In this document: positions 4,670 to 53,954 of the stretch, piece after piece
Layout: each line of letters begins with the position of its first letter
How positions within the stretch are numbered: position 1 is the first letter of the stretch
Source: Streptomyces sp. ST2-7A
GTDB lineage: Bacteria; Actinomycetota; Actinomycetes; Streptomycetales; Streptomycetaceae
Direction of reading: 5' to 3'
NCBI RefSeq assembly: GCF_021390475.1
Contig: NZ_JAJUWS010000023.1
Span: 1 to 64,000 of the forward strand
Length of the DNA: 64,000 nucleotides
Translations under genes and position numbers: made by a program
The notes under the pieces: model-generated
Told to the model about the DNA's origin: nothing
What the model saw: the letters and a program-made list of their open reading frames with translations, nothing else
The model's database searches: none

Positions 4670-5624
4670 GCCCCTCCGTCCCGGGGTGCCGCGGGATGCC
4701 CCGGGGCGTGCTGGAGGTCGTTCCCCGGGGAGCGGACCGGGGCGGATTCGGGGTAGGGTTCCCTCTCCTCCCCGTTGATCGGACGAGCGACCGCCGGAGG
4801 CCCTCCCGACACTTCGCCGGGCCGGGGTTCCGGGAGTGTGGGGGGACGGGAATCGTTCCGGTTTCCCGTGGTGTTCCGTGCCGACCGGCCCGTCGTGTTC
4901 ACCGGCGTGACGATCCTCCCGGAGCGCTCCCGACCGGCATCCGGTGGGATGCCGGCCGTTGTCCGACCGGCGAACTCTCCCCCGCCCGGGACTTTCCGCT
5001 TCGTGAACAGCCGGCGCCGAGTTTTCCACAGGAAGCTTCACCCGCCTGTGAATAAGTCGATGTTGACGAAGTCGCAAAGCGGACATTTCACCCTCAGCTC
5101 CCCAGGGTGATCGAGGATATCCCCAGCGTCGATTCCGCCCTCTCGTGTCAATCTGTTTTACTTAGGTCACACTGGAGGGGGACCACAAAAGGGACAAAAC
5201 CGGAATTCCCTCAGGCAAACCGGGCGAATCACCATGAGCCGACCAACCCCCTCCGGAGTTTTCCACACCTTCGAGCGATGCCCTGTGGAAAAGCATGTGG
5301 ACGAGTCACCGGCTGTGGATGTACGCGGAGATCCGGGTATCGCGGAGTATCAACTCAGGCCCGAGCATATCCCGCATAGACCACCATTCCGCGCCATTTG
5401 CCACATGAGGGACAAAGAGCCCTAATCGGGCATAACGCTTCATTCGCCCATGATCTACCGCGCACCCCGGCAGCCCTGCATCCCTCGCACGGCCGCCGAC
5501 CCCGCCGAACACCCCTGGTCCGCGCATCGTGACCGAACGTGACAAGTCCACCGGGGCCCCCGGGGGCCCGCCGGCCCGACACCGGCGGTCCCGGGCCGGC
5601 GGGGTTCCCCGGTAGCCTGGGGGC
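4670..5624. other. Long intergenic region pheA-serS with DnaA-box-like nonamers
   Basis: About 950 bases with no convincing gene. The left part (4670-5010) is GC-rich and featureless. From about 5020 to 5430 the base composition drops and DnaA-box-like nonamers appear (listed separately). The last 200 bases should hold the serS promoter. I found no T-box or other riboswitch signature. Confidence 0.7.
5022..5322. promoter_or_regulatory. Cluster of five DnaA-box-like nonamers
   Basis: Read directly: TTTTCCACA at 5022-5030 and 5259-5267; its exact inverse TGTGGAAAA at 5284-5292; TGTGGACGA at 5296-5304 (reverse TCGTCCACA, fitting the degenerate Streptomyces DnaA box); and TGTGGATGT at 5314-5322. 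Four boxes fall within 64 bp (5259-5322): one on the plus strand facing three on the minus strand. Streptomyces DnaA prefers TTGTCCACA, so most of these differ at one to three bases. A role in binding DnaA is inferred from sequence and location only. Confidence 0.6.
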
Positions 5625-50501: not shown

Positions 50502-51941
50502 CTAGAAGCCGCCCTCCATGTTGACGAAGCGGGAGTAGTGGCCCTGGAAGGCAACGGTGATGGTGGCGGTGGGGCCGTTGCGGTGCTTGGCGACGATCAG
50601 GTCGGCCTCACCGGCACGCGGGGACTCCTTCTCGTAGGCGTCCTCGCGGTGGAGCAGGATCACCATGTCGGCGTCCTGCTCGATGGAGCCCGACTCCCGC
50701 AGGTCGGAGACCATCGGCTTCTTGTCGGTGCGCTGCTCCGGGCCACGGTTGAGCTGGGACAGCGCGATGACCGGGAGCTCCAGCTCCTTGGCCAGCAGCT
50801 TGAGGTTTCGGGACATCTCCGAGACCTCCTGCTGCCGGGACTCCGGGCGCCGGGACCCGCCGCTCTGCATGAGCTGGAGGTAGTCGATGACGACCAGGCG
50901 CAGGTCGTGCCGCTGCTTCAATCGGCGGCACTTGGCGCGGATCTCCATCATGCTCAGGTTGGGCGAGTCGTCGATGAACAGCGGGGCCTCGTTGACCTCG
51001 GCCATCTGCCGGGCGACGCGGTTCCAGTCCTCGTCGGTCATGCTGCCCGAGCGCATGTGGTGCAGGGCGACCCGGGCCTCGGCGGAGAGCAGGCGCATGG
51101 CGATCTCGTTGCGCCCCATCTCCAGGGAGAAGATCACGCTGGGCAGATTGTGCTTGATCGAGCAGGCGCGCGCGAAATCCAGGGCGAGGGTCGACTTACC
51201 CATCGCGGGACGAGCGGCGATGACGATCATCTGGCCGGGGTGCAGGCCGTTGGTCAGCGCGTCGAGGTCGGTGAACCCGGTGGGCACACCGGTCATCTCG
51301 CCGCTGCGGTTGCTGATCGCCTCGATCTCGTCGAGAGCGCCCTCCATGATGTCGCCGAGCGGCAGGAAGTCCTCCGCCGTGCGCTGCTCGGTGACGGCGT
51401 AGATCTCGGCCTGCGCGGAGTTGACGATGTCGTCCACGTCGCCATCGGCGGCGTACCCCATCTGAGTGATGCGGGTACCGGCCTGCACCAGGCGGCGCAA
51501 CACCGCGCGGTCGTGGACGATCTCGGCGTAGTACTCGGCGTTGGCGGCCGTGGGCACGGTCTGCACCAGCGAGTGCAGGTAACCGGCGCCACCGATCTTG
51601 GCCAACTCGCCGCGCTTGGTCAGTTCGTTGGCGACCGTGATGGGGTCGGCGGGCTCGCCCCGGGCGTAGAGGTCGAGGATCGCCGTGTAGACCGTCTCGT
51701 GGGCGGGCTTGTAGAAATCGTGGCCCTTGATGGCCTCGACCACGTCGGCGATGGCGTCCTTGGACAGCAACATGCCGCCCAGCACGGACTGCTCGGCGTC
51801 GAGGTCCTGGGGCGGGAGCCGCTCGAAGGCCGCCCGCTCCTCGGAGCCGTCCTCCCAGCGGGGGGAGCCGGTACCTCCGCGCCGGGGTGCCGGGGGCGCG
51901 CTCTCGGCCCACTCGCCCTCGGCGTACTCCAGATCCGCCAT
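50502..51941 (-). CDS. dnaB: Replicative DNA helicase DnaB
   Basis: Hexameric helicase that unwinds DNA at the fork, 479 residues. The N-terminal domain (LPPQDLDAEQSVLGGMLLSKDA) binds primase; a linker is followed by the RecA-like domain with Walker A in ARPAMGKSTLALDFARA. Walker B is in LRLVVIDYLQLMQ, and the C-terminal GPTATITVAFQGHYSRF matches. No intein is present. ATG at 51941 has GGAGGGAGGG a suitable distance upstream; longer frames are non-coding. The upstream region carries DnaA-box-like sites, so its transcription may respond to DnaA. Confidence 0.97.
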   Translation of the reverse strand: MADLEYAEGEWAESAPPAPRRGGTGSPRWEDGSEERAAFERLPPQDLDAEQSVLGGMLLSKDAIADVVEAIKGHDFYKPAHETVYTAILDLYARGEPADPITVANELTKRGELAKIGGAGYLHSLVQTVPTAANAEYYAEIVHDRAVLRRLVQAGTRITQMGYAADGDVDDIVNSAQAEIYAVTEQRTAEDFLPLGDIMEGALDEIEAISNRSGEMTGVPTGFTDLDALTNGLHPGQMIVIAARPAMGKSTLALDFARACSIKHNLPSVIFSLEMGRNEIAMRLLSAEARVALHHMRSGSMTDEDWNRVARQMAEVNEAPLFIDDSPNLSMMEIRAKCRRLKQRHDLRLVVIDYLQLMQSGGSRRPESRQQEVSEMSRNLKLLAKELELPVIALSQLNRGPEQRTDKKPMVSDLRESGSIEQDADMVILLHREDAYEKESPRAGEADLIVAKHRNGPTATITVAFQGHYSRFVNMEGGF

Positions 51942-52520
51942 GCGGGCCCGCCCTCCCTCCCGGCTCACCGGGCCGCGGGCCCGCGGCCCGTCACCCGTCG
52001 GAACATGCTGAACGTGATCGACGCGGGCCGACCCGGAGTGATCGCGATGAACCCGCCGCGCCGGTGATCCGGTGATCCGACGGTTCGTTCCGTCGCTGTC
52101 CACAGTTGTACGCCACGGCACCGACAGGCACCGTTCGGGGGCCGCGTCCGCCGTCGTCGGGGGACCCGGGACAGACCTGCGGGCGCCCCACGGTACGTGC
52201 TCCGGCGGTGCCCGCCAAACCGGTTATCCACAGGCTGGGGGCAACGCCTGTGGACAGCGCCCCGGACACTGTGGAAGAACCCCCGTTTTCTGTGGACCTC
52301 TCAGGGGATGACATTGTGGATTCTCCCGAAAGATAATCAGAAAACCTGTGCTGACCTGCGGTGATGCGATGACCTTCGACACCGACCCGAGACTGTCGAA
52401 AAAAGTTCGCGGACCATGCCCCGCGCGCGCCGGACGGGAGAGCGGTTCACGCCCCTCCCACACAGAGGTAAGGGTCACAAAACCATTGCATCCATTACCT
52501 GTGGATGCTTGGATCATCGC
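51942..52520. other. dnaB-MATE divergent intergenic region
   Basis: About 580 bases without a gene. It carries divergent promoters and the DnaA-box cluster described separately, and includes a short AT-richer segment (about 52320-52350, GAAAGATAATCAGAAAA) next to the boxes. Confidence 0.7.
52096..52508. promoter_or_regulatory. Cluster of seven DnaA-box-like nonamers upstream of dnaB
   Basis: CTGTCCACA 52096-52104; TTATCCACA 52224-52232 (identical to the E. coli high-affinity box); TGTGGACAG 52249-52257; TGTGGAAGA 52270-52278; TGTGGACCT 52291-52299; TGTGGATTC 52315-52323; TGTGGATGC 52500-52508. The first three fit the degenerate Streptomyces box (T/C)(T/C)(G/A/C)TCCACA exactly; the rest keep the TCCACA core. 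Five boxes fall within 100 bp at about 21-25 bp start-to-start spacing, near two helical turns. Confidence 0.7.
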
Positions 52521-53954
52521 ATGAGCCCACCCCCCGCGCGTCGGTCCGCGCCCCCCGGCGAGCCCGCCGGGGCCCCGACCGGGAAGAACGCGGTCACCAC
52601 GCCCGACGGGGAATCCTCCCGCGCCACCCGACGACGGATCGCCCGCCGGTACGACCGGGAGATCCTCGCCCTCGCGCTGCCCGCCTTCGGCGCGTTGGTC
52701 GCCGAACCCCTCTTCCTCCTCGTCGACAGCGCCATGGTCGGTCACCTCGGCACCGACCGCCTCGCCGGCCTCGGTGTCTCCGCCGCGCTGCTGACCACCG
52801 GCGTCAACATCTTCGTCTTCCTCGCCTACGCCACCACCGCCGCCGTCGCGCGCCGTCTCGGCGCCGGCGATCTGCCCGCCGCCCTCCGCCAGGGCGTGGA
52901 CGGGATCTGGCTGGCGCTGTTCATCGGCCTGGCCGTGGCCGCCGCGCTGATCCCCGGCGCCCCGGCCCTGGTCGACCTCCTCGGCACCTCCGCCGAGGCC
53001 ACCCCGCACGCGGTGACCTACCTGCGGATCAGCGCGCTCGGCATTCCCGCCATGTTGATCGTGCTCGCCGCCACCGGGGTGTTGCGCGGACTACAGGACA
53101 CCCGCACCCCGTTGTACGTCGCCATCGGTGGTTTCACGGCCAACGCCGCGCTCAACGCCCTGTTGATATACGGCGTCGGCCTCGACATCGCCGGCTCGGC
53201 CTGGGGCACCGTCATCGCCCAGGTGGGCATGGCGGCGGTGTACCTGACCGTGGTGGTGCGCGGCGCCCGCCGACACGGCGCCCCGCTGCGCCCGGACGCG
53301 GCGGGCATCCGGGCCTGCGCCCGGGCCGGCACCCCACTGTTGATCCGCACCCTCTCGCTGCGGGCGGTACTGCTCATCGCGACCGGCGTCGCCGCCCGGC
53401 TGGGCGACGTCTCCATCGCCTCCCACCAGGTGGCCCTCACCATCTGGACCCTGACCGCCTTCGCGCTGGACGCCATCGCCATCGCCGGGCAGGCCATCAT
53501 CGGCCGCCTGCTGGGCGCGGACGACGCGGCCGGGGCCCGGGCGATGTGCGCCCGCATGGTGCGCTGGGGGATCGGTTCCGGAGTGGTGCTCGGCGTCCTG
53601 ATCGCCGCGGGCAGCCCGCTGATCGTACGGATCTTCAGCCCCGACCCGGAGGTGCACCGGGCGTTGCTCCCGGTGCTGCTGATCGTGGCGGTCACCCAGC
53701 CGATCGCCGGGGTGGTCTTCGTCCTCGACGGGGTGTTGATGGGCGCCGGGGACGGCCCCTACCTGGCGGGGGCGATGCTGGTGACCCTCGTCGTCTTCGC
53801 TCCCGCGGCCCTGTTGGTGCCGGTGCTCGGGTGGGGCGTGGCCGGTCTGTGGTGGATGGTGGCGGGGCTGATGATGATCACCCGGATGGTGACCCTGGGT
53901 CTGCGGGTGCGGGCCGGACGCTGGATGGTCACCGGCGCGGTCCGCGCCCGCTGA
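52521..53954 (+). CDS. MATE-family (DinF-type) efflux transporter
   Basis: A 477-residue cation-coupled multidrug or metabolite exporter with 12 membrane segments. YDREILALALPAFGALVAEPL opens the first helix and AGLGVSAALLTTGVNIF follows, with GRLLGADDAAGARAM in the second half. The N-terminal 40 residues are a Pro/Arg tail. ATG at 52521 lies within sequence carrying the last DnaA-box-like site. Divergent from dnaB. Substrate unknown. Confidence 0.9.
   Translation: MSPPPARRSAPPGEPAGAPTGKNAVTTPDGESSRATRRRIARRYDREILALALPAFGALVAEPLFLLVDSAMVGHLGTDRLAGLGVSAALLTTGVNIFVFLAYATTAAVARRLGAGDLPAALRQGVDGIWLALFIGLAVAAALIPGAPALVDLLGTSAEATPHAVTYLRISALGIPAMLIVLAATGVLRGLQDTRTPLYVAIGGFTANAALNALLIYGVGLDIAGSAWGTVIAQVGMAAVYLTVVVRGARRHGAPLRPDAAGIRACARAGTPLLIRTLSLRAVLLIATGVAARLGDVSIASHQVALTIWTLTAFALDAIAIAGQAIIGRLLGADDAAGARAMCARMVRWGIGSGVVLGVLIAAGSPLIVRIFSPDPEVHRALLPVLLIVAVTQPIAGVVFVLDGVLMGAGDGPYLAGAMLVTLVVFAPAALLVPVLGWGVAGLWWMVAGLMMITRMVTLGLRVRAGRWMVTGAVRAR

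Follow-up and report, generated by a model that had tools for sequence, protein, structure and literature searches.

In mycobacteria, DnaA is known to bind at the gene of the replicative helicase. Five regions are strongly enriched by M. tuberculosis DnaA, including Rv0057 upstream of dnaB, and ChIP-seq of M. smegmatis DnaA recovers homologs of the same five regions (PMC7738170). The M. tuberculosis DnaA variant I282T is described as binding less upstream of dnaB, with under-expression of dnaB (PMC7738170). DnaA of Caulobacter is also bound upstream of dnaB (cited in PMC7738170). The Caulobacter case places DnaA upstream of the helicase gene, as proposed here for Streptomyces, in a distant phylum.

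Clusters of DnaA boxes also occur outside origins, and according to a review, untimely initiation is held in check by such clusters in both B. subtilis and S. coelicolor (PMC5742627). The datA and DARS sites of E. coli and the B. subtilis clusters share with the array described below that all are non-origin DnaA-box clusters; unlike them, the present array is tied to a predicted gene promoter. Three S. coelicolor clusters near oriC, named H69, H24 and D78, were reportedly described by Smulczyk-Krawczyszyn in 2006, with the focus on D78 and initiation control. From the cosmid names, we take H24 to be probably the dnaB cluster and D78 to be the cluster between pheA and serS.

Here we analyze a candidate DnaA-box array between dnaB and a divergent MATE-family transporter gene of Streptomyces sp. 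ST2-7A. The window, i.e. the whole stretch of DNA analyzed, comprises 64,000 nucleotides of contig NZ_JAJUWS010000023.1. Like H69, H24 and D78, the array is a DnaA-box cluster near oriC in a Streptomyces. It has the same gene and the same side in common with the mycobacterial dnaB site, and differs from it in box number, order and spacing. In the open-licence literature on DnaA and dnaB, Streptomyces DnaA-box clusters and titration, no statement was found on the class-wide reach or the rigid spacing of the dnaB boxes. DnaA binding at dnaB is already known; what appears to be new is that the boxes are conserved across the class and kept in a rigid phase.

The box array between dnaB and the MATE gene

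A preliminary description, made from the letters of the window, reported seven TCCACA-core nonamers at 52096-52508 between dnaB (minus strand) and a MATE gene (plus strand). All seven cores are found, Pfam matches support both flanking genes, and five boxes form a row with core starts 22, 21, 21 and 24 bp apart (Table 1). Seven cores in 413 bp compare with a mean of 0.29 in dinucleotide shuffles, and none of 5000 shuffles reaches seven. The whole 64 kb contains 34 TCCACA cores, and the dnaB–MATE region is the densest spot. In the 6.18 Mb genome, the pattern TCCACA / TGTGGA / TGTGGA with short gaps occurs in two places, one upstream of dnaB and one in the pheA-serS cluster (the reversed pattern, used as control, gives 0 matches), and the pattern - / - / - occurs in the dnaB region, next to dnaA, and at a single place on each of two further contigs.

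Table 1. Genes, candidate DnaA boxes and predicted promoter elements of the dnaB–MATE region, in window coordinates. Offsets are relative to the anchor box; those in brackets refer to relatives with unshifted spacing.
Feature	Position	Strand	Basis or remark
dnaB, replicative DNA helicase	50502..51941	-	Start codon at 51941; Pfam DnaB_C (E 1.1e-108) and DnaB N-terminal domain (E 3.1e-36)
Isolated box-like nonamer CTGTCCACA	52096..52104	+	In predicted dnaB leader
Predicted -10 of dnaB promoter (TACCGT)	52190..52195	-	TANCGT counts and column conservation
Predicted -35 (TTGGCG in the window; consensus TTGGCT), 17-bp spacer	52213..52218	-	TTGG columns 0.96-0.99 conserved in 84 regions
Candidate DnaA box 1, anchor, TTATCCACA	52224..52232	+	5 bp upstream of predicted -35
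Candidate DnaA box 2, CTGTCCACA	52249..52257	-	+22; register common to nine genomes with the same shift
Candidate DnaA box 3, TCTTCCACA	52270..52278	-	+43 (+32)
Candidate DnaA box 4, AGGTCCACA	52291..52299	-	+64 (+53; there relatives have mostly TGTGCA)
Candidate DnaA box 5, GAATCCACA	52315..52323	-	+88 (+77; TTGTCCACA in many relatives)
Distal candidate DnaA box, GCATCCACA	52500..52508	-	+273 (about +251); adjoins MATE start
MATE-family transporter gene, divergent from dnaB	52521..53954	+	Pfam MatE (E 2.5e-45)

The DnaA-box consensus of Streptomyces is YY(G/A/C)TCCACA, and three of the seven boxes match it, as had been stated. The high-affinity DnaA box of S. coelicolor, TTGTCCACA (PMC4285127), is absent among the seven. 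The boxes of the window are weaker than those of relatives (prefixes AGG, GAA and TCT), which counts against a regulatory role of the array here. The nonamer at 52096 had been counted as a member of the cluster and has to be set apart: it is not conserved among 61 genus regions, where a box between dnaB and the anchor occurs only in the window and in one relative (L009), at differing places, and it is probably lineage-specific or a chance occurrence. A short hairpin at 52488-52508, just before the MATE start, contains the distal box and was flagged by a scan as resembling a minus-strand terminator; a search of the region for known structured RNAs gave no Rfam match up to E 1.

Conservation within Streptomycetaceae

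The genus sample consists of the window and the best-scoring 60 of 80 relatives found (61 regions), and the other family sample of 29 regions from 51 other-genus genomes, with all 16 other genera included. Loss of the boxes upstream of dnaB in relatives had been named in advance as the observation that would speak against a functional array. Instead, the TTATCCACA anchor is present in 61/61 genus regions, and conservation extends to the class (see below). Over both samples, 84/90 Streptomycetaceae regions have the anchor upstream of dnaB. Among the six without it, one (L085) is a truncated contig with almost no upstream DNA, and the other five, from two genera (L084, L092 and L094-L096), have 4-8 boxes each in a different order, an exception that counts against the model proposed below.

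Behind the anchor, the spacing of TGTG half-boxes is fixed in 84/84 anchored regions. A half-box lies at +11 in 83/84, at +32 and +53 in 74/84 (at +43 and +64 in the remaining ten), and a fourth at +77 in 70/84 (+76 in four, +88 in ten). Full TGTGGA cores are rarer than half-boxes (78 regions at +11, 71 at +32 and 50 at +77), and position +53 has TGTGCA in nearly all anchored regions. A distal TGTGGA is found at +250 to +273 in 83/84, exactly at +251 in 66. Over 74 aligned regions, mean identity is 97% in the box cores vs 77% elsewhere. The anchor with half-boxes at +11, +32 and +53 occurs once per genome in 104/121 family genomes (the reversed-pattern control gives 0 in all 121), and a by-eye comparison places it within 600 bp of dnaB in 49/49 of these genomes for which the place of dnaB is known. 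The genome of the window is outside the 104 because of its 11-bp shift. Outside Streptomycetaceae, the rigid +11/+32/+53/+77 array was found in none of the sampled regions. By its box density beyond chance and its conserved boxes and spacing, the dnaB array qualifies as a putative extra-origin DnaA-box cluster.

A further conserved stretch lies at about +130 to +162 from the anchor (e.g. in L010 and L016), with TCCAC-GGCTGTG followed by AGAAAAACTT; it looks like paired weak boxes, and is poorly preserved in the window. In relatives (e.g. G037, G047, G050 and G063), the open frame of dnaB is often far longer than usual and its match is split, mostly near residues 250 or 420, the pattern expected of inteins.

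Helical phase of the array

An 11-bp insertion between anchor and array is observed in the window and in nine other genomes. In a tree of DnaB plus MATE (61 rows), the window groups with the unshifted L009 (local support 0.97) while the nine shifted genomes form their own clade (support 1.0); because the window and the nine-genome clade fall apart in the tree, the two insertions look independent. Otherwise the spacing of the main array departs by no more than 1 bp, in four genomes. In contrast to this spacing, the distance from the anchor to the start of dnaB ranges between about 140 and 390 bp; these values are approximate, as the start codons of relatives were extrapolated from the match. 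Insertions of 11 bp, i.e. one helical turn, together with the fixed spacing suggest a constraint on the helix face of the boxes, as read from few events.

The predicted dnaB promoter

A conserved TTGGCT-like hexamer lies 5 bp from the anchor on its dnaB side and is followed, after a 17-bp spacer, by TACCGT, which together resemble the -35 and -10 elements of a promoter reading towards dnaB. A TANCGT motif that has a box 25-90 bp upstream is seen in 56/61 genus regions vs 1 on the opposite strand and in 20/29 other family regions vs 3, with a median distance of 37 bp from box core to TANCGT. Among named dnaB loci (the best 80 of the matches listed), the combination is present in 24/31 from Streptomyces vs 1 on the opposite strand, and in 24/42 from other genera vs 3. 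The boxes thus have a fixed place relative to the predicted promoter in Streptomycetaceae. The geometry is not established class-wide, because the corresponding count in the class sample is 8/31 vs 4 on the opposite strand. In alignments of mycobacteria, and in those of Amycolatopsis and relatives, boxes do lie upstream of an element resembling TA(G/C)CGT that is conserved.

A consensus promoter scanner run on the region did not report the conserved minus-strand dnaB site. It did report a plus-strand promoter-like site at 52308-52337 (ATGACA, 18, GATAAT; 10 of 12), which overlaps box 5, faces the MATE gene and could serve it. In S. coelicolor, dnaB lies within the modelled HrdB regulon (PMC6344877), which fits the predicted promoter by analogy.

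dnaB loci across the class and phylum

The class sample comprises 31 regions from 26 other families, taken from 56 class genomes outside the genus. In these 56, dnaB was matched at the cut-off in 44 and not in 12; 13 of the 44 were left out, several with split matches or contig ends. A box lies within 350 bp of dnaB in 31/31 class regions, and two or more in 29, where two regions are counted with only 141 bp (L103) and 89 bp (L116) of upstream DNA. Box density is 9.5 per kb in the 350 bp upstream of dnaB vs 0.69, 0.25 and 0.31 in the next bins. In the phylum outside the class (the best 30 of the matches), boxes are patchy, occurring in 13/27 regions at a density of 2.3 per kb vs 0.2-0.3.

The named dnaB loci (again the best 80 of the matches listed) have boxes in 73/80 and two or more in 70, at 7.5 per kb vs 0.8; the 11 mycobacterial loci with the ordinary dnaB setting have 1-4 boxes each. 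Seven of the 80 are boxless (L250, L251, L252, L255, L259, L262 and L270). These have neither rplI nor MATE upstream, while one or the other is present in 63/73 loci with boxes. We observe here a link of the boxes to the chromosomal dnaB setting, and infer that the boxless loci are accessory copies. One (L250) is a plasmid record, frames upstream of L250 and L252 have matches to replication-initiation families of phage type (E about 2e-5), those upstream of L259 give weak matches of the same type (E 0.002), and L270 has an upstream phage-family DNA-binding protein (E 3.9e-18); the neighbour scan gave no family match for the upstream frames of L251, L255 and L262. A mobile-element setting is therefore suggested for at best four of the seven. 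In six, an open frame fills most or all of the upstream stretch examined, which leaves these copies hardly any promoter region there, if any, so the missing boxes partly reflect missing intergenic DNA, and the contrast between boxless and boxed loci is weaker than a like-with-like comparison. The DnaB proteins of the boxless loci are 69-80% identical to the query.

The putative origin and other box clusters of the genome

A DnaA domain is encoded at G000:C23:91747, and ten cores at 94046-94544 of the same contig are taken as oriC; on this basis the dnaB array lies about 42 kb and the pheA-serS cluster about 89 kb from the origin. The preliminary description had paired the pheA-serS cluster (window 5022-5320) with the dnaB array as a companion site. 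The distance of 47 kb is as stated, but the two differ in distribution and show no evolutionary match: among serS loci (the best 30 of the matches, minus L196, which lacks upstream DNA), the pheA-serS cluster is present in 4/4 own-genus genomes, and a single box occurs in 1/25 other class genomes. In the class sample this cluster is restricted to its own genus, which suggests that the dnaB array is probably the older of the two.

A site outside the window, at G000:C14:86918-87123 (L003:2919-3124), has five DnaA boxes 3' of a crgA gene, and four of the five are TTATCCACA. Among crgA loci (L003 together with the 30 best from 57 genomes), 29/31 have boxes within 400 bp 3' of crgA, including 25/27 from outside the genus, at a density of 5.8 per kb vs 0.32 in control DNA; upstream of crgA, boxes occur in 4/31 loci, with no enrichment. 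The place of this 3' site resembles that of the DnaA site between Rv0010c and Rv0011c of M. tuberculosis, the latter being presumably crgA. The Rv0010c-Rv0011c site is described as having no obvious correspondence in other species (PMC7738170).

A proposed model for DnaA control of dnaB

The region is best explained as a DnaA-binding regulatory array attached to the promoter of the chromosomal dnaB gene, most likely activating dnaB, a reading to which we assign a probability of about 0.7. Conservation and analogy with mycobacteria support DnaA binding at the array. Through it, DnaA probably controls the amount of helicase made, as the preliminary description had proposed. Such control agrees with the promoter-like arrangement seen in Streptomycetaceae and with what is reported on binding and expression in mycobacteria. 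In the proposed mechanism, the box-binding domain of DnaA would occupy the anchor, which adjoins the predicted -35 on its upstream side, together with the phased boxes beyond the anchor, and boxes occupied on roughly one helix face would control transcription of dnaB. Plentiful active DnaA would then give more transcription from the housekeeping promoter, so that helicase supply would be matched to initiation and follow the amount and nucleotide state of DnaA. Given the distance of about 42 kb between the locus and the putative oriC, helicase supply would also be tied to origin copy number.

Activation is the most likely sign because the boxes lie upstream of, and not over, the predicted promoter; this geometry is complemented by the I282T variant. 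Against the proposal it must be counted that the I282T effect is that of one protein variant in another genus, and we infer the promoter, the sign and the application to Streptomyces sp. ST2-7A from comparison.

Alternative explanations

An unlikely alternative is that the array is mainly a sink for DnaA, or a datA-like inactivation device limiting initiation, and that its place beside dnaB is incidental. The B. subtilis and S. coelicolor clusters described as repressors of untimely initiation (PMC5742627) provide a precedent, and the dnaB locus lies some 42 kb from the putative oriC. Incidental placement, however, leaves unexplained why boxes occur upstream of dnaB in every class region, and why, in Streptomycetaceae, their distance from a conserved promoter-like element is constant. 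Titration may operate on top of dnaB control.

DnaA might instead repress dnaB from the array, by looping or by oligomerizing into the promoter. In several bacteria, dnaA is repressed by its own product, and the distal box near MATE is kept at about 24 helical turns, a spacing that would allow a loop. The conserved boxes nevertheless leave the predicted -35 and -10 free, and the less-binding M. tuberculosis variant goes with lower, not higher, dnaB expression (PMC7738170), which makes repression distinctly improbable.

It is very unlikely that the array serves the divergent MATE gene. The last conserved box is immediately next to the start of MATE, and the promoter-like site facing MATE overlaps box 5 in the window; but MATE was not found beside dnaB in 22/31 class regions (two with under 150 bp of upstream DNA), and all 22 have boxes. 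Their persistence there rules out a MATE-only element.

A second or relic replication origin is more doubtful still. The window combines boxes with an AT-rich patch, which had been described as adjoining the row and is present, though only mild (60-bp bins of 50-57% GC). In relatives, 30-bp bins in and beyond the array range from 0.29 to 0.59 AT, highest at the distal box, and two bins beyond the array have values of 0.52 and 0.59. Over 74 relatives, however, the mean AT content of the array proper is 40%; dnaA has its own adjacent box cluster elsewhere on the contig; and in other families the boxes keep to dnaB, mostly in its reading direction (82/99 class boxes vs 10/18 in control DNA). The earlier suggestion of origin-like unwinding is unsupported, as is origin function. 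Chance clustering, for which nothing speaks beyond the shortness of the motif, is ruled out by the shuffles and by conservation over a class.

Implications

A broader reading, which we advance tentatively and consider doubtful as a whole, is that actinomycetes possess a class-wide hard-wired circuit, in which DnaA, bound to an array in helical phase, would activate the helicase gene of the chromosome, and the distal box some 24 turns off would allow a DnaA loop across the dnaB–MATE region. Accessory dnaB copies in mobile-element settings would escape this control, and the array and the class-wide site 3' of crgA would belong to a set of ancestral DnaA sites coupling initiation, helicase supply and the neighbourhood of a division gene.

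One rigid, conserved array beside dnaB offers a small mutational target for asking whether DnaA sets the helicase level, a question that applies to antibiotic producers and laboratory mycobacteria alike. The likeness to the mycobacterial binding data points to a model that may be shared across the class.
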